NCBI GenBank assembly: GCA_012511885.1 | Contig: JAAZFE010000050.1 | Coordinates: 1-41,352 of the forward strand | Source of the DNA: Lentisphaerota bacterium | GTDB lineage: Bacteria; Verrucomicrobiota; Kiritimatiellia; CAIQIC01; Lenti-01 | DNA: 41,352 bases | Direction: 5' to 3' | In this document: positions 4,543 to 41,352 of the stretch, one piece after another | Layout of the letters: each line of letters starts with the position of its first letter | Numbering within the stretch: the first letter of the stretch is position 1 | Program-made: the position numbers and the translations under genes | The notes under the pieces: generated by a model | Databases searched by the model: none | What the model was told of the DNA's origin: nothing | The model's input: only the letters and a program-made list of their open reading frames with translations

Positions 4543-7361
4543 AGAGCGTCCCGGTCCTCTTCAAACTGATTCTGGCGCATAATCTGAAGCGCCGGGTGCG
4601 GATGGCCCTAGGCCTCCTGGGCATAGCCATTTCCACCTGCCTGGTGGTGTGGATCATTCGCGGCTATGAAGCAGCGTCCCTCGACAGTCAGCGCGGCGCT
4701 CAGCAGGAAAGTCGCTTTGATGTGACCCTCACCCCTCCCTCTCCTATGGCCATGCCCGGTCAGCGTGGCGCCGGAACTCGCCGTCCGCCCGTGCCAACCG
4801 ATGCCTCGGAACGCTATATCGGCGCAGAATGGATCGAGGGCTTGCGGCAAGACTACGCTGTGGCCGAAGTCGTGCCGCTGGTGACGGGGCGCATCCGGCT
4901 CGTGGACCCGCCCCCCCCGCCCGAACTCTTCAGCGGCAGCTCCATGGCCGGAACCGACAGTCCGACACCCCTGCAAGCCATCGGCCGGGGGCGGTGGCTG
5001 TCCTCCGCGGAACCCGATGGAATCGTCATCTCCAGCCGCTTCGCCGAGCGCTATGACCTGTCTTTGGGGGACACCATTCTCTTGGGCGGCACGGCCACGG
5101 AGAAAACCCTGAACATTATCGGCATGTTGGCCCCCCCAGCGGGACAACGGTCAACCTACGGCATCCCGCACTTGGCCGATGTCTATACGCGTCAGGCTGT
5201 TGCCGAAGAGCTTAATGGCTACTCCGGAAAAATTCATGCCGTGGTTTTGAATCTCAAAGACAAAGATGATGTGGATGGTTTTGTCATGGAATGGTCCGCG
5301 CGCACCGCTGCCGCAGAACCGCCGATTGTCGTGCGCTCACTGATCGCCAAGGGCCATCCCATGGCCGACCGCATGATGTGGATGATCAAGGCACAGGCCC
5401 AAAATGCCATTGTCCTAGGTTTTCTGGCGGCCTGCTTCATCATGTTTGCCACCTTGAGCGGCGGTGTTCGGGAGCGGTTGCGCGAGTTGGCCTCGCTGCG
5501 GGCCATTGCTCTCTCCAAGCCGCAGCTGGTGCTGATGATTTTGATCGAAGCCGCGATGCTGGCCTTGGCCGGATGGCTCCTTGGACTGCTTCTGGCTCGC
5601 GGATTTTTGCGCTTGGGCAATGCTTGGGCCGTCCACTTGAATTTCTTCCGGGCCGGCGCGTTTGCGGATTTCCCACTCGGGAAAACCGCCTTGGCGATGT
5701 CCGCCCTGGCCGTTTTGATCGGAGCGTTTTCAGCGGCTTTGCCGCCCATCTGGACCGGCTGCACCTTGCGCCCCATGGATATCCTGGGCGGTCCGACCGA
5801 AGACCGGATCCGCCGCTTCCCCTGGCGACTGGTGTCTCTGGGCCTCGCTTTGATTGTCATCAACCCGCTGATTGTCCTCATGGCCGATGTCGAGCCCTTC
5901 CATTCGCTGTTTGCCAAGATCACCCGCATAGGCTTCGCCCCCCCCCTGCTCACCTCGGGCGCGGCTATTTTGGGGCTGGCTTTGGTCACCCCTTTGATGG
6001 TGCGCCTGGTTGAAGTGATCTTCAGTCCCGTTCTGGCCTTCCTGCTGCGTCTTGATCGCCGGTTTCTCCGCCAGCAGCTCACTGGCAATTTGCGCCGCAC
6101 GGTCAGCACAACCGTGGCGCTTTCCGCCGGTTTAACGCTGTTCGTTACCGCGCTGGTTTGGGGCTATTCCATGCTTGTGCCTTTCACCCCCGACGACAGT
6201 TTGCCCCAGATGCTCGTTTCCGTCCTGCCCGCCGGCATTCCTCCTTCTGCTGAAAACGAAGTAGCCAACCTGGAAGGCGTCATCCCCGGGCAAAGTTTGC
6301 CCATGGTAGTCGAGCAACCCCGCCTGACCGATGCCATGCTGGCGTCCAAACCCTTTGAATCGGTTGACTCTTCGCAGCAGCACCTCCTGCTGATGGGTAT
6401 AAATCCCGCCCGTGCCTTTTTGGGCAATCAGCCCCTCTTGCGCTTGAAATTCCTGCAGGGCGACCCAGTCACCGCCGCCCGCAAGCTGGCCGAAGGACAC
6501 TATTGCATTGTCCCCGACCACTTTCACACCCAAACAGGTCTCGGTGTCGGCGACTCCTTTGCCGTTAGCGTTCCGTCCGACCCAACCCGGGAAGTCAGCT
6601 ATGAAATCGTCGGCGTTGTCGAAATCCCCGGCTGGAACTGGTTCACAAAATTTTCGGGCATTCGCCGCCGGGCCGTTCGCGCCTTGGCGCTGGTCTTGGC
6701 AGACTTTGATCAAGTCCGTGCCGATTTCGATCTCGAGCGCATTACGGAGTTCTGGCTCAACGCCGAGCCCGGAGTGACCTTCCAAGAGATGGAACAACGG
6801 ATAACCGATGTCGCCAACCGGCATGTCAATGTGACCGTCAATGTGCCCGGAGTCGGCCCGGCGCTCATTCAAAAACAGTATGTGAAAATCACCGAACGCA
6901 ACGACTTGCTGGGCTGGCTGTCATGGCGCGCGGACAGTGTGATTTGGTCGCTGACCCGCTTCCCGCTCCTGGCACTGATCATTGCCTCGCTGGCCGTCTT
7001 CAACACCGTATTCGCCTCCGTGCAGGCCCGCTACTGGCAATTCGGGATCCTGCGGGGTGTCGGCCTTTCCCGAAGCCAGCTCTTCCGCCTTGTAATCAGC
7101 GAGGCGCTGATGATCTTTCTGGCAGCGGGCGTGCTCAGCCTCGTGGCCGGCGTCCTGCTGGCCTGGTGCGGCATGCAGATTTCCACCCATTTCTTCTATT
7201 TCGCGGGACGCACCCCCCCCCTGATCCTGCCATGGAGTGGGCTTTCTGTGGGGTTTGGCATTGCTTTTGCCCTGTGCTTTGTCGCCGGCCTGCTCCCGGC
7301 CTGGCGCATGGCCCGCCAGGAACCGCTCGCGTTTATTCAGGCCGGCCGCCTTTCGGTCTAA
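4539..7361 (+). CDS. ABC transporter permease with two FtsX-like blocks
   Basis: A 940-residue inner-membrane permease partnering the preceding ATPase. An N-terminal membrane segment lies at about residues 22-42, then a large extracytoplasmic domain (about 45-285) of MacB-PCD style. Membrane segments follow at about 287-309, 329-352 and 385-405 (first FtsX block), then at about 431-450, 465-505 and 520-545, a second extracytoplasmic domain, and the C-terminal FtsX block (about 808-828, 850-878, 900-925) ending with LLPAWRMARQEPLAFIQAG. This duplicated layout is known from large DUF214/LolCE-like permeases. Substrate unknown: lipoprotein, lipid or small-molecule export are all possible. Sharing a locus with a TonB receptor is suggestive but proves nothing. 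No periplasmic adaptor (MacA-like) gene is adjacent. Confidence 0.9.
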   Translation: MKSVPVLFKLILAHNLKRRVRMALGLLGIAISTCLVVWIIRGYEAASLDSQRGAQQESRFDVTLTPPSPMAMPGQRGAGTRRPPVPTDASERYIGAEWIEGLRQDYAVAEVVPLVTGRIRLVDPPPPPELFSGSSMAGTDSPTPLQAIGRGRWLSSAEPDGIVISSRFAERYDLSLGDTILLGGTATEKTLNIIGMLAPPAGQRSTYGIPHLADVYTRQAVAEELNGYSGKIHAVVLNLKDKDDVDGFVMEWSARTAAAEPPIVVRSLIAKGHPMADRMMWMIKAQAQNAIVLGFLAACFIMFATLSGGVRERLRELASLRAIALSKPQLVLMILIEAAMLALAGWLLGLLLARGFLRLGNAWAVHLNFFRAGAFADFPLGKTALAMSALAVLIGAFSAALPPIWTGCTLRPMDILGGPTEDRIRRFPWRLVSLGLALIVINPLIVLMADVEPFHSLFAKITRIGFAPPLLTSGAAILGLALVTPLMVRLVEVIFSPVLAFLLRLDRRFLRQQLTGNLRRTVSTTVALSAGLTLFVTALVWGYSMLVPFTPDDSLPQMLVSVLPAGIPPSAENEVANLEGVIPGQSLPMVVEQPRLTDAMLASKPFESVDSSQQHLLLMGINPARAFLGNQPLLRLKFLQGDPVTAARKLAEGHYCIVPDHFHTQTGLGVGDSFAVSVPSDPTREVSYEIVGVVEIPGWNWFTKFSGIRRRAVRALALVLADFDQVRADFDLERITEFWLNAEPGVTFQEMEQRITDVANRHVNVTVNVPGVGPALIQKQYVKITERNDLLGWLSWRADSVIWSLTRFPLLALIIASLAVFNTVFASVQARYWQFGILRGVGLSRSQLFRLVISEALMIFLAAGVLSLVAGVLLAWCGMQISTHFFYFAGRTPPLILPWSGLSVGFGIAFALCFVAGLLPAWRMARQEPLAFIQAGRLSV

Positions 7362-31041: not shown

Positions 31042-31109
31042 CACGCAAACGCTCCCCCGCGAAACGTACAAAACCCTCCCCCCCCACTGTTCTTCCAAAC
31101 CCCAAAACC

Positions 31110-36304: not shown

Positions 36305-38422
36305 ATGAAAAATACAACCGCAGTCAGCGTCGCCCTCGGCGACAAATCCATGGTCTTCGAGACCGGCCTTCTGGCCCGGCAAGCCGCCGGTCAGGCCACC
36401 TGCCAACTGGGCGAAACCCTTGTGTTTTCCGCCGTCACCTCCACCAACAAGCCGCGCGAAGGCGTTGATTTCTTCCCGTTGCAGGTTGAATATCGCGAGC
36501 GTTTCTATGCCGCCGGGCGCTTCCCGGGCGGCTATTTCAAGCGCGAAGGACGCCCCACCGAAAAGGAAATCCTGACCGCACGCGTCACCGACCGCCCCAT
36601 CCGGCCGCTGTTTGCCGAGGGCTTCTACAACGACGTGCAGATCAATAACGCCCTCATGACCGTTGATGGCGAAAATGAGAGCGACATCCTGAGCATCAAC
36701 GCCGCTTCCGCCGCGCTGATGCTAAGCGAACTGCCCTTCTACGGCCCCATCGGCGCCGTGCGCGTGGGAATGCTCGATGGCCAGTTCGTGCTCAATCCCA
36801 CCCACGAGCAGATCAAAAAGTCCGTCCTCGACCTCGTCTATGTCGGCCGGCGCGACCTGCCTATGATGATCGAAGGTTCCGCCAAGGAAATCAGCAACGC
36901 CGACATGGTGGCCGCCATGAAGTTCGGCCATGAAGCCGTCGTGAAAATCTGCGACGCCCAGATCGAATTGCGCGAAAAGATGGGCCTGCCGCCCAAAACC
37001 GTCGCTGAAGCCGGCCCCGACACCGAAAAAGTGGGCAAATTGCGCGAAATCGCCGGCGCCGACCTCGAAGAAGCCCTCTTCACCGTCATGAAGCTCGAAC
37101 GCCAGGAGAAAATCGGCAAGGTCTTCGATGCCTCGTTCGCCAAAATGCAGGAAATCTTCGGCGAAGACGTCATCACCGAGAACTACTTCAAGCAGCTCTT
37201 CGACGTCATCGAAATCGAGATTGTCCGCCGCAACCTCCTCGAAAAGGGCCGCCGCATGGATGGCCGTTCCCTGGACCAACTGCGCCAGCTCACGGCCGAC
37301 GTGAGCATTCTACCGCGCGTGCATGGTTCCGCCCTGTTCTCCCGCGGCGAAACCCAGGCCATGGCCGTCGTCACCCTCGGCACCGGCCGCGACGAACAGG
37401 AACTCGACGGCCTGACCGGCGGCGAAACCAGCAAGCGTTTCACCCTGCACTACAACTTCCCGCCCTATTCCGTTGGCGAAGTCCGCCGCCTGGGCGGCCT
37501 CAACCGCCGCGAAATCGGCCACGGCGCGCTCGCCGAACGCTCCATCGAGCCGATGATGCCGGAAGACTACCCCTACGCCGTGCGCGTCGTCTCGGAAATC
37601 ATGGGCTCAAACGGCTCATCCTCCATGGCTTCGGTCTGCGTGGGCACCCTCGCCCTCATGGACGCGGGCGTTCCCCTCAAGAAGCCCGTCGCCGGCATCT
37701 CCATCGGCCTGGTCACGGGCGAAGGCAAGACCCCGGTCCTGTTCACCGACATCCTCGGCGCCGAAGACCATTGCGGCGACATGGACTTCAAGGTGGCCGG
37801 CACGCGTGACGGCATCACCGGCTTCCAGGTGGACCTCAAAATCCGCGGACTCGAGTGGGATCTCGTGGCCGGCGCGTTCGACCGCGCTTCGCAGGCCCGT
37901 CTGGAAATCCTCAAGACCATGACCGAGGCCATTCCGGCCCCGCGCGACGACCTGTCGCCCTACGCGCCGCGCATTCTCGTGGTCAAGATCAACCCCGAAA
38001 AGATCGGCGCCCTCATCGGCCCCGGCGGCAAAAACATCCGCCGCATCACCGAAACCACCGGCACGCAGATTGACATCGAGGACGACGGCACCGTGTCCAT
38101 CTTCTCCAACAACAAGGCGCATCTGGATGCGGCGCTGCACGAGGTCGAAGCCCTCACCGCCGAAGCCGAAGTAGGCAAGATCTACCGCGGCAAGGTCACC
38201 GGCATCAAAGATTTCGGCGCTTTCGTCGAATTCCTGCCCGACCAGGAAGGCCTCGTCCACATCAGCGAATTGGCCGATTTCCGCGTCAATCGCACCGAGG
38301 ACGTCGTCAAAATGGGCGAAGAAATCTGGGTCAAGGTGCTTTCCGTCGAAGACAACGGCAAAGTCCGCCTCTCCCGTAAGGCCGCCATGGCCGACCGCGG
38401 CGAGGCCACCCGCCACGCCTAA
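36305..38422 (+). CDS. pnp: Polynucleotide phosphorylase
   Basis: A 705-residue 3'-5' exoribonuclease of the RNA degradosome. Two RNase PH cores flank an all-helical linker: the first includes [20 protein letters not shown] and TDRPIRPLF, the second [19 protein letters not shown] and [17 protein letters not shown] domain ([16 protein letters not shown], about 566-581) and an S1 domain (about 625-695, [20 protein letters not shown]) follow. It is the expected length. A purine-rich leader (GAAGAAAAGA) precedes the ATG. A strong terminator stands 22 bases after the stop. Confidence 0.97.
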
Positions 38423-38474: not shown

Positions 38475-38506
38475 CATGTCCTTTCACCCCCTTTTGGCCC
38501 AAATCC

Positions 38507-38534
38507 ATTCTCACTTATTATAATAAGTGAGAAT
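38507..38534. promoter_or_regulatory. Isolated 28-bp palindrome, arsR2-type operator
   Basis: Identical to the palindromes at 31110 and 31899 (half-site ATTCTCACTTATTA). It lies 33 bases beyond the pnp terminator, with no partner 87 bp away and no gene for 570 bases. It is preceded by CCCAAATCC, similar to the sequence before the half copy at 41216. Confidence 0.65.
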
Positions 38535-39108
38535 GGACAATCCCTTGTCCTCCAAGAAGATAAATCATTTTTTAAAAAGATTTTCCGAAATTTTCTAAAA
38601 AATCGGCGGCCGAGCTCGAAAATAGTCATTTTTGGACCGTTTCCCGTCATTTTTGGTCGTTTTCGGGCCATTTCGACTCATTTTTTCCTGAAAAGCCCCA
38701 CCAAGCACGGTATTACGAATGTGCACAATCGTAATACTCGTTTTCTATAGCCGGGCTCGGTGAGCCTGAGCTTAAACAAAAATTTCTCGCCCCCGCGCCT
38801 CAGCGCAAAAAAGGTAGGGACGCATCGCCGAGGCGTCCGATACATCTGTTTAACAATGCCGCTGTCAGACTTCCGTCTACGGTCTCTCGTCGCGCTACAG
38901 GCGCACCCGCCCCTGCGGCGCGGCCCCCCTTCCCTCCGCGTGGACCAACCATGCCCCAGTTTAAGCAATCCCATAATTATCCAATTGACCTTGCTGCAAA
39001 ATTTCGGTAAAAAATCTTTCGAAGAGTTCTCTTTGGCTTTAGCAATTCCGCGTTTAGCCTATGAAACTGTTCGTCAAAAATTAAAAATCAAAGCGATAGG
39101 GAGGAAAT
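38535..39108. other. Non-coding repeat-rich stretch between pnp and the zinc-ribbon gene
   Basis: It begins with T-rich low-complexity sequence (38560-38690) that is the reverse-strand counterpart of the A/C-rich repeats at 160-370 and 39555-39660. At 38813-38837 GGTAGGGACGC and GGCGTCC form a short hairpin of a type common in dispersed repeats. From 38995 to 39108 a short frame in phase with other sequence hints at a decayed gene, but nothing is recognisable. I see no complete gene. Confidence 0.55.
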
Positions 39109-39429
39109 ATGGCTCTGGTAAAATGCCCTGAATGTGGCACGAAGGTTTCTACGGCGGCCTCTGCTTGCCCAAAATGTGGTGCTCCAATTGCAACCCCAAG
39201 TATCGGCACTCCGTTATCCACCATACAGCAGACCAGTAAGAAGCTTAAGATTCAAATCATATTCTCCTCGCTGGCTTTTTGGATTGGTTTAATCTGGTTT
39301 CTGATCGCAATTAACAGTGAGAGCCAGCCGCCTAACGCCCCACCACCGCTAATCCCAGTATTTTTATTTTTAATCGGGGCACTATGGTATTTGGTTACAA
39401 AATTCCGTATCTGGTGGCATCACAAATAA
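39109..39429 (+). CDS. Zinc-ribbon membrane protein
   Basis: A 106-residue protein. Residues 5-24 form a zinc ribbon of the zf-ribbon type (CPECGTKVSTAASACPKCGA, with Cys in two C-x2-C pairs). Two hydrophobic helices follow at about 48-66 (IIFSSLAFWIGLIWFLIAI) and 80-97 (LIPVFLFLIGALWYLV). AGGGAGGAAAT is an excellent ribosome-binding site. Zinc-ribbon plus membrane-helix proteins are widespread and mostly uncharacterised. The gene is more A/T-rich than the core genes. It ends four bases before the first attC-like structure, so it could be the cargo of an integron-type cassette. Confidence 0.78.
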   Translation: MALVKCPECGTKVSTAASACPKCGAPIATPSIGTPLSTIQQTSKKLKIQIIFSSLAFWIGLIWFLIAINSESQPPNAPPPLIPVFLFLIGALWYLVTKFRIWWHHK

Positions 39430-39433
39430 TCGC

Positions 39434-39497
39434 GTCGAACAAAGCGTCCCACCACTATGCGCCGCAAGCGGCGCGAGGGTGAACGCGGGCGTTCAAC
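39434..39497 (+). other. attC-like recombination site 1
   Basis: A 64-nt imperfect inverted repeat with outer boxes GTCGAAC (39434-39440) and GTTCAAC (39491-39497). Inner arms AAGCGTCCCACC and GGTGAACGC pair with a bulge. The centre is the hairpin GCGCCGCAAGCGGCGC. Size and order (R'', L'', hairpin, L', R') are those of integron attC sites, and GAACAA and GCGTT resemble the classical edges. The boxes deviate from the canonical RYYYAAC and GTTRRRY by one base each. Confidence 0.5.
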
Positions 39498-39625
39498 AAA
39501 TGAGGCATGATCCCCAAAACCTCAACGCCCGCGCAAAGGTGTAGCGATAGCGTCAAAAAATGAAAAAAAGCACCGGTTTTGCACCCCGACATCGCCAAAA
39601 ACACCCCCAAATGGCCCTAAAAACC
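39491..39625 (+). repeat. Direct repeat, copy 1 (non-coding)
   Basis: From GTTCAACAAAT onward this matches 41032-41160 with scattered changes, including AAAACCTCAACGC and the block ACCGGTTTTGCACCCCGACA / ACCGGTTCTGCGCCCCGAAA. Each copy starts at the right box of an attC-like site. Confidence 0.6.
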
Positions 39626-39666
39626 GAAAAATACGACTTTTCGACGTCCAAACGCCAATTTTCTTG

Positions 39667-39953
39667 CCGGGATCATTCATGCGACAGGTCTGTGCCCCCC
39701 ACCGCCCCTATTACCGCCGCACCAGCGGCGTCCTCAGCGTCCGTGTCCGTCAGTGACCGTCCGTGTTCGTCCGTGTGGCTGTTCCTACCGCGTCAGCGGC
39801 ATACTGCGAGTCTTGCACAATACTGCAGATGGGTCAGAATCGTCGCGCCCCAGGGCAACAGAGATGAAAAGCCCAAAACCCCCTCCCTTCCCACACCGCA
39901 CCCGGAAATAGACCATCACATTTTCATCCATGCTGATGAGTGATTCTGGCTGG
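39667..39953. mobile_element. MITE-like element between attC-like sites 1 and 2
   Basis: Left arm CGGGATCATTCATGCGACAG and right arm, read inward, CCAGAATCACTCATCAGCAT are diverged versions of the ends at 18320 and 18531. Internal segments CATACTGCGAG and AGAATCGTCGCGCC are shared with the 18320 element, and TTTTCATCCATGCTG matches its right hairpin arm. It is 287 bp long. An inserted tract of GTCCGTG-like words occupies 39738-39780. An open frame across the element is made of repeat sequence and is not counted as a gene. Confidence 0.5.
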
Positions 39954-39959
39954 ACTCAT

Positions 39960-40040
39960 ATGCCCCATTCACGCAAAATGAAGAAGTTGAACAAGGCACT
40001 TGAGGCTATCGGCGGCAAGCCGCCTCAGCCCCATCGCTAG
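39960..40040 (+). CDS. Short ORF running through attC-like site 2, possible gene remnant
   Basis: Twenty-six codons, MPHSRKMKKLNKALEAIGGK then PPQPHR. The last 18 codons lie inside the attC-like repeat, the way small cassette genes often end. It may be a mini-gene or the 3' remnant of a gene lost when the element at 39667 inserted just upstream. No good ribosome-binding site is visible. Confidence 0.3.
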   Translation: MPHSRKMKKLNKALEAIGGKPPQPHR

Positions 40041-40048
40041 CGTTCACC
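39986..40048 (+). other. attC-like recombination site 2
   Basis: A 63-nt structure with outer boxes GTTGAAC (39986-39992) and GTTCACC (40042-40048) and the central hairpin GGCGGCAAGCCGCC, flanked by TGAGGC and GCCTCA. It shares GAACAAGG on the left and CGCTAGCGTT on the right with the other two sites. The next gene's ATG starts directly after its right box. Confidence 0.5.
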
Positions 40049-40771
40049 ATGAAATATATGAAAGCTTTTACGCCGCCACATAAATATGAATTACGGCGTA
40101 ATGGTGTCTCGGACGCGAATACAGTTAAGCTCGCGGAAGATACACTTGTCGTATACCGATCGCTTTATCAGGGTATGGCCCCAATAGGCGAATGGATACA
40201 AACACGAGTCGCTTGCCTTATTCGTGAATGGCTGCCCGAGGAATGGATAACCTCCCACGGTCAAATCGCAGATGTGGATACCCCAGAAATTCAATCCCGA
40301 TCTTGGGACATCATTGTCCATCGACCCATTCCAAAATCTCGGGGTTATCCTCCGCCAGCGTCTTCCAATGGGCCATATCCGCTCGTGCCGAAAGATCTGT
40401 GTTGTGCCGTCGTTGACACAAAAGGCCGTTATAACACCCCGAAGAAGTACGCTGAGGCTAAGGCATTTAATCCGCCCAATAATTGTAATACGAAACAGCT
40501 GGATTTTCTTGGCCAAAATATCCTTCCCGTTCTTTTCATTATGGCCACAAGTCGTTCACCAGACCGTGTTGAAGCTGAGGGTGAAGCTAACGGCATCTCG
40601 ACATTCGTCCTCGCCAAAGCAATTGATCGGAAAACCTCCGATTGGACGAACACTGTATTCTGGCATCTCAATCAAGGTATGGATGGCATTCTCCCGTTGA
40701 GTAGATTCCGCGAGACGCTTCGCTGGGCGGCCAATCAATGGACGATCAGGAATTCCATACAATCCTGTTGA
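40049..40771 (+). CDS. Hypothetical protein with possible PD-(D/E)XK-like (DUF6602-type) fold
   Basis: A 240-residue soluble protein. The central part reads SRSWDIIVHRP (about residues 83-93), then DLCCAVVDTKGRYNTPKKYAE (in two parts, about 117-137). A D, then a hydrophobic strand, then D-x-K spacing is what PD-(D/E)XK nuclease-like proteins and DUF6602 domains show, but the assignment is by eye. No membrane segment or signal peptide. The ATG lies one base after attC-like site 2 with no leader, as in integron cassettes; a second ATG is at residue 4. The following small gene starts 13 bases after its stop. The gene is more A/T-rich than the chromosomal core, consistent with transfer. Confidence 0.6.
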   Translation: MKYMKAFTPPHKYELRRNGVSDANTVKLAEDTLVVYRSLYQGMAPIGEWIQTRVACLIREWLPEEWITSHGQIADVDTPEIQSRSWDIIVHRPIPKSRGYPPPASSNGPYPLVPKDLCCAVVDTKGRYNTPKKYAEAKAFNPPNNCNTKQLDFLGQNILPVLFIMATSRSPDRVEAEGEANGISTFVLAKAIDRKTSDWTNTVFWHLNQGMDGILPLSRFRETLRWAANQWTIRNSIQSC

Positions 40772-40784
40772 AAGCAGCACGTTT

Positions 40785-41030
40785 ATGAATGACACAGACA
40801 AGTTGAAACAGCGGTTTCTGAATATGTCGAAGGAAAAACAACGACGCATTTACGATCGTTTTGCGGAGTTATTTGCCCGCCTAGAGGCTGACTGGAAGGC
40901 AAAACCCGAAAACGCTGGGAAAGCTGTCCCATATAAAAAACTATGGGATGACTTCAGCAGCCAGAGAAAAGAAGCTGAACAAGGGGTGGATGGGTACCCG
41001 CCACAAGGCGTTGAGACCCCAGAACGCTGA
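40785..41030 (+). CDS. Small hypothetical protein, 81 aa, ending inside attC-like site 3
   Basis: An 81-residue, highly charged, probably helical protein (DKLKQRFLNMSKEKQRRIYD, RLEADWKAKPENAGKAVPYK). It has no cysteine or membrane segment, and I do not recognise it. Its last 18 residues (EQGVDGYPPQGVETPER) are encoded within the attC-like repeat. It follows the nuclease-like gene by 13 bases and might be its partner, for example an immunity or accessory protein. That is only positional inference. Confidence 0.55.
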   Translation: MNDTDKLKQRFLNMSKEKQRRIYDRFAELFARLEADWKAKPENAGKAVPYKKLWDDFSSQRKEAEQGVDGYPPQGVETPER

Positions 41031-41038
41031 CGTTCAAC
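40974..41038 (+). other. attC-like recombination site 3
   Basis: A 65-nt structure with outer boxes GCTGAAC (40974-40980) and GTTCAAC (41032-41038). GGGGT (40983-40987) pairs with ACCCC, and GAACAAGG and CGCTGACGTT match the edges of sites 1 and 2. The stop codon of the 81-aa ORF lies inside it. Confidence 0.45.
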
Positions 41039-41160
41039 AAATCAGGAGTGACATCTAAAACCCCAACGCTCTCGCAGAGGGGTGACGTTGCAACCAAAAC
41101 ACCCCAAAAAAACCGGTTCTGCGCCCCGAAATCGTCAAAAACACCCAAAATTGGCGCATC
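41032..41160 (+). repeat. Direct repeat, copy 2 (non-coding)
   Basis: Second copy of the sequence at 39491-39625, beginning at the right box of attC-like site 3. It is followed by more A/C-rich repeat sequence up to 41215 and contains no gene. Confidence 0.6.
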
Positions 41161-41215
41161 TTTGACGGAAAAGCGCCTGTTTTCGGCATTTTCAAGCCAT
41201 TTTCGCCCCAAATTC

Positions 41216-41233
41216 ATTCTCACTTATTATAAT
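41216..41233. promoter_or_regulatory. Truncated arsR2-type palindrome
   Basis: ATTCTCACTTATTATAAT is the left 18 bases of the 28-bp palindrome. Sequence then switches abruptly to CCGGAACTCCCAGTTCTGG, itself a small inverted repeat. Confidence 0.55.
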
Positions 41234-41352
41234 CCGGAACTCCCAGTTCTGGTGAATAAAGGGAGAGTATCACGCCCTGTTTTCTGGCGTGTTGAGCAGG
41301 GGGTAAGAGTGGGGAATCAGGCGATCAGTAAAGGCTTTTGTGACACTTAGAA
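41234..41352. other. Unassigned sequence at the window edge
   Basis: It contains two short inverted repeats (CCGGAACT/AGTTCTGG and CACGCC/GGCGTG) and no recognisable gene start. It could be the end of an inserted element that interrupted the palindrome, or simply the leader of a gene outside the window. Confidence 0.3.

Follow-up and report, generated by a model that had tools for sequence, protein, structure and literature searches.

The window analysed here, a 41,352-nt contig (C12) of a 2.49-Mb metagenome-assembled genome of a Lentisphaerota bacterium, very probably contains a short row of at least three integron gene cassettes directly after the housekeeping gene pnp, most likely brought there by an integron integrase (IntI) acting in trans. 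The gene cassettes of integrons are small mobile gene packets, best known for the spread of antibiotic resistance, and cassette arrays without an integrase are common. Three structures near the right end of the window are attC recombination sites. This identification follows from their kinship with integrase-linked arrays in related genomes, their bottom-strand fold, the covariation of paired positions, and the identity between the R'' box of a site and the R' box of its predecessor in the array.

The three attC sites

The covariance model used for detection (R2) was built solely from 23 sites found in G007 and G013, two further genomes of the same family. These sites stand in long arrays between unrelated genes, and one of the arrays adjoins an integrase. 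They had first been located with a model that contained the window sites (R1), so their selection was not fully blind. In the 41-kb window, R2 returned the following sites and no other match at E ≤ 5:

39434..39497, plus strand: attC site 1, 64 nt; R'' GTCGAAC, R' GTTCAAC; R2 E = 9.9e-11
39986..40048, plus strand: attC site 2, 63 nt; R'' GTTGAAC, R' GTTCACC; R2 E = 1.5e-8
40974..41038, plus strand: attC site 3, 65 nt; R'' GCTGAAC, R' GTTCAAC; R2 E = 5e-12

Across the 2.49-Mb genome the same three sites rank first to third, with site 3 scoring best. A strict pattern search matched these sites alone genome-wide, while its control gave one match per strand; an Rfam search of the region returned no match at E ≤ 5. 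All three sites share the right edge CGCKRRCGTT and the AAC and GTT cores, and their GTTC and GAAC depart from the purine/pyrimidine rule of RYYYAAC/GTTRRRY. Among the 23 relatives' sites the fourth base of the GTT box is G in 13, C in eight and A in two (GTTG, GTTC and GTTA). The window boxes are a slightly relaxed form of the consensus; they are not alien and mark no new system. An earlier sequence-only reading had described structures of 64, 63 and 65 nt with these boxes and this right edge, all of which is borne out, and the covariance-model search that it proposed, run with a model from other genomes, recovers exactly these three. Its further suggestion of a separate, lineage-specific attC type that standard models overlook has weak support, since the boxes in relatives are mostly ordinary and GTTRRRY-like.

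The bottom strand of site 1, which is expected to be the recombining strand, folds with an R-box helix and extrahelical bases, and this site gives the best fit to the structure in the window (24 of 24 pairs). Site 2 folds at -13.6 kcal/mol on the bottom strand versus -9.6 kcal/mol on the top strand. The 23 sites of G007 and G013 show 79 compensatory double changes against 40.8 expected from 500 shuffles, and 79% of their paired cells can pair, compared with 35–44% once the partners are slid. In 22 of these sites the 3' arm carries two unpaired bases six nucleotides apart; the first is T in 22 of the 23, and the second is C in 14, G in eight and A in one. The T-N6-X spacing is the geometry of attC extrahelical bases (PMC3053210, PMC2727003). 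Bottom-strand folding, another check proposed by the sequence-only reading, yields the hairpins with extrahelical bases at a distance of six nucleotides.

Integration of a cassette circle at G/TT leaves the right half of the cassette's R' box at the left end of the inserted cassette. Joining of this kind predicts that an R'' box complements the R' box of the site preceding it in the array and not the R' box of the same site. Across 29 junctions, R'' agrees on average with the preceding R' at 3.55 of the 4 variable bases, against 1.67 for its own R' and 1.64 for unrelated boxes. The two junctions of the window score 4 and 3 of 4, and R'' of site 2 is exactly complementary to R' of site 1; within the window alone this test does not discriminate, because the three sites also score 3 against their own R'. 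The G/TT-to-G/TT distances are 551 bp (cassette 1) and 990 bp (cassette 2), confirming the cassette lengths first proposed from the sequence.

Integrases and further attC loci in the genome and the family

The comparison set comprised 16 other genomes of the same family (G001–G016), of which G002 (STCSWMC_75) is congeneric with the window genome. Presence and absence calls for attC and IntI across the family rest on draft genomes, so the absences are soft; in the window genome, loci beyond C12 were examined only in the stretches around matches. The integron-integrase search gave no match on C12, and hence none in the window. At the edge of contig C88 of this genome lies a C-terminal IntI fragment (207 bits over 150 aa); truncation of the gene by the contig end keeps its score below the cut-off of 265. 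Its closest solved structure is the Vibrio cholerae integron integrase 2A3V, with which it aligns over residues 184–317, insert region included, and its closest sequences come from Kiritimatiellae-labelled genomes (81% and 77% identity), one of them STCSWMC_75; accordingly, we take the host to belong to the Kiritimatiellae, in the phylum Verrucomicrobiota. Full-length IntI proteins of relatives score 363–385 bits. In G007 (contig C27), 16 attC sites in a row end ∼0.6 kb from a divergent 464-aa IntI open reading frame (ORF; TIGR02249, 377 bits against the cut-off of 265). STCSWMC_75 carries two uninterrupted IntI-like genes, one of 469 aa (385 bits), whose contig ends 407 bp upstream of its start, and one of 491 aa (G002:C50) with three model matches on its cassette side, the first ∼0.36 kb upstream of the start. 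A third integrase gene in that genome (G002:C92, L039:2160-3556), with two attC sites on the cassette side, is broken into overlapping 109-aa and 368-aa reading frames, owing either to a frameshift or to an error in assembly; relatives possess intact copies of this type of gene. In both G007 and G002 the integrase stands at the start of the array and reads away from it.

The integrases of this lineage (L038:408-1814, L192:13367-14761 and L041:2563-3849) have ∼110–160 extra N-terminal residues relative to the family model. These extensions match no Pfam family over the cut-off, and those of two of the integrases are barely alike. Integrase-profile matches on C49 (87 bits) and C45 (76 bits) were piecemeal, look like other tyrosine recombinases, and were set aside.

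Searching the rest of the genome for intI and related sites, as the sequence-only reading had also advised, turned up about five further attC loci besides the C88 fragment (C14, C134, C140, C52 and C101). Several loci, with one to three attC sites, are thus scattered over the genome. Two attC-like sites on C134 flank a HigBA-like pair, while those on C140 and C52 follow a RelB-YafQ pair and a RelE-like ORF, respectively, and the one on C101 precedes a gene of PADLOC class PDC-S18; the genes identified at the attC loci of this genome are toxin-antitoxin and nuclease-like. One match of the first model, on C156 (30 bits), falls within an ORF of 580 aa and was attributed to chance. Across the family, both IntI and attC occur in G002, G007 and G013. 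Seven genomes have attC matches and no clear IntI (G001, G008, G010, G011, G012, G014 and G016), and the remaining six (G003–G006, G009 and G015) gave no attC matches and, in the integrase-protein search, no clear IntI. Middle-type attC sites at unrelated loci, namely cassette 1, C14, C52, C101 and C140, have ∼50 bp upstream of the core in common. The shared stretches are:

L020:1129-1203, 2175-2223 and 6868-6936; L177:6849-6951; L178:8298-8377; L022:3280-3360; window 39950-40053

Cassette contents and borders of the array

The cassettes, their genes and the flanking features of the window are:

36305..38422, plus strand: pnp ORF (polyribonucleotide nucleotidyltransferase), the housekeeping gene left of the array
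39069..39075, plus strand: GTTCGTC, predicted G/TT left edge of cassette 0; 3 of 4 variable bases match the expected GTTCGAC
39109..39429, plus strand: cassette 0 gene, 106-aa zinc-ribbon membrane-type protein (PF13240 30.2 bits, PF13248 29.7 bits, both above cut-off)
39492..40042, plus strand: cassette 1, 551 bp, with spacer-type dispersed repeats
40043..41032, plus strand: cassette 2, 990 bp, from G/TT to G/TT
40049..40771, plus strand: cassette 2 gene, 240-aa protein with weak PD-(D/E)XK nuclease resemblance (PADLOC PD_DExK, E 0.002 only)
40785..41030, plus strand: second ORF of cassette 2, 81 aa, stop codon within site 3
41033..41233, plus strand: left part of a probable further cassette, interrupted by an insertion sequence (IS); 126 bp of it are 73% identical to the cassette 1 start
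41234..41352, no strand assigned: end of a multicopy IS, in which the contig stops

The array begins just after pnp, and pnp and smc occupy its left side. The expected left edge of cassette 0, GTTCGAC, is the reverse complement of the R'' box of site 1; the predicted edge matches it at six of seven bases and lies 40 bp before the zinc-ribbon gene, whose ORF stops at 39429, four bases short of site 1. Cassette 1 probably has no gene. A 127-aa ORF within it (39560-39943), which stops 42 bases before site 2, was rejected because it matches no Pfam family and its DNA is a dispersed repeat. In cassette 2, the 240-aa ORF starts at 40049, one base after site 2, as the sequence-only reading had remarked. 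Its protein matches no Pfam or NCBIfam family, and a search of 287 other genomes of the class yielded a single relative, encoded in partly masked sequence where no attC was recognised. The 81-aa ORF matched no family above the cut-off. The same reading had two ORFs ending inside sites, which holds for the 81-aa ORF (its end at 41030 lies in site 3) and fails for the others, which stop before sites 1 and 2.

Two repeats lie side by side in cassette 1. Window positions 39800-39870 form a 71-bp repeat with sharp boundaries, of which the genome has some twelve copies (79–84% identity), and positions 39702-39800 form a repeat rich in GTCCGTGT units, with more than 25 copies genome-wide, one of them directly after the intI fragment on C88.

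On the right, the 195 bp that follow site 3 are similar to the first part of cassette 1 and the contig ends in an IS, so the array probably continues beyond the window with a fourth cassette already begun. The sequence from 41234 has identical copies at both ends of C26 and on C108, each with a different left flank, and the C26 copy runs on into a transposase-like ORF. The palindrome CATTCTCACTTATTATAATAAGTGAGAATG occurs in window spacers at 31107, 31896, 38504-38537 and 41213-41233, and the copy at 41213 is halved by the IS.

Orthologues of pnp were found in 16 of the 18 other genomes searched (63–87% identity). Where their flanks are long enough to judge, which excludes G008, G001 and G006, they continue into other genes and contain no attC match. 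No exact empty site could be aligned at pnp, as the flank differs between genera.

Origin of the array and its place among integrons

In the reading that we favour, each cassette would end in an attC whose bottom strand folds into a hairpin for IntI binding, and IntI would cleave the R' box of the folded site at G/TT. The cassettes most likely reached pnp through IntI supplied in trans, either by insertion at a non-classical chromosomal site or as the remains of a former array, and any compatible IntI might excise them again. The sites may still recombine today. Several points weigh against this reading: no recombination has been observed, cassette 1 lacks a convincing gene, site 3 alone folds less cleanly and fits the structure less well than site 1, several of the other attC loci of the genome are degenerate, and its IntI is incomplete, C88 starting inside the gene.

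The window holds no intI and thus no complete integron, in which both intI and attI adjoin the array. A cluster of attC sites lacking integrases (CALIN) requires two or more attC sites with no intI in the vicinity; here there are three, with no integrase match on C12, and the right side is open beyond 41352. Given the C-terminal IntI on C88 and the contig end in a multicopy IS, the CALIN label is certain only on the left side. The sequence-only reading's "CALIN-like" therefore stands for C12 itself and is qualified by the C88 fragment and the IS, while its broader view of integron-like cassettes without a visible integrase agrees with sites that fold, covary and chain like attC and that adjoin an integrase in relatives. 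CALINs are also known from genomes that have IntI at another place (PMC12444791), a situation like the one in this genome, except that here the contig of the array stops in an IS at its right end.

The array might instead belong to a larger chromosomal integron of the ordinary kind, served by the C88 integrase and truncated by the assembly, and so be no CALIN at all. An IntI C-terminus at the very edge of C88 and an array running into an IS at the end of C12 would both fit, but in G007 and G002 the integrase sits at the array start, the side occupied here by pnp and smc, and C12 has no integron-integrase match; we consider this unlikely. It is hardly credible that the structures are dispersed hairpin repeats (of the repetitive extragenic palindromic (REP) or miniature inverted-repeat transposable element (MITE) kind, or terminators) that merely resemble attC. 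The genome is rich in dispersed repeats and the middle-type sites share their ∼50 bp at several loci; however, relatives carry the same sites head-to-tail between unrelated genes beside IntI, R'' matches the R' of the previous site and not its own, the extrahelical-base geometry is conserved, and the six of 16 family genomes without such matches also have no clear IntI. The common upstream stretch at unrelated loci does suggest that attC might be copied onto gene ends as part of a longer dispersed repeat, although we regard this as quite improbable.

As to the route of the cassettes, we lean slightly towards off-target insertion at an attG-like chromosomal site by pnp over decay or rearrangement of an integron. 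Off-target insertion is one proposed origin of CALINs (PMC8618304), and attG sites have been described (PMC12444791, PMC12901181). In favour are the G/TT edge predicted at 39069, 40 bp upstream of the cassette 0 gene, the lack of attC in the judgeable pnp flanks of relatives, and the several scattered loci with one to three attC sites in the genome; on the other hand, the pnp flank varies between genera, so that no exact empty site was aligned, and the left edge matches at just six of seven bases.

The sedentary chromosomal integrons of Kiritimatiellae relatives (G007:C27, STCSWMC_75 and G013) have the same attC fold, sequence type and joining signature, but these genomes have IntI, either next to the array or at another locus (with a broken frame at L039), whereas the window has none. 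With the attC sites of class 1 integrons and Vibrio cholerae, those of the window share the R''-L''-L'-R' layout, G/TT, the bottom-strand hairpin and T-N6-X, and their lengths fall within the known 57–142 nt (PMC2727003, PMC3053210). They differ in that the fourth base of R' is often C (GTTC) in this lineage, and the second extrahelical base is mostly C in the relatives (14 of 23; G in 8 of 23) versus G in most described attC sites (PMC3053210). Verrucomicrobiota are among the phyla known to have integrons (PMC8618304). A literature search, with most subscription papers and all preprints outside its coverage, found no description of integrons in Kiritimatiellae; the array thus represents a known kind of element, apparently little described so far in this lineage.

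These data document integrons and scattered attC loci across a Kiritimatiellae family. Should attC indeed be copied with a dispersed repeat, such copying would offer a view of the birth of new cassettes. The C-preferring second extrahelical base and the long integrase N-terminus are features of the lineage that would be useful for testing which features of the site IntI reads.
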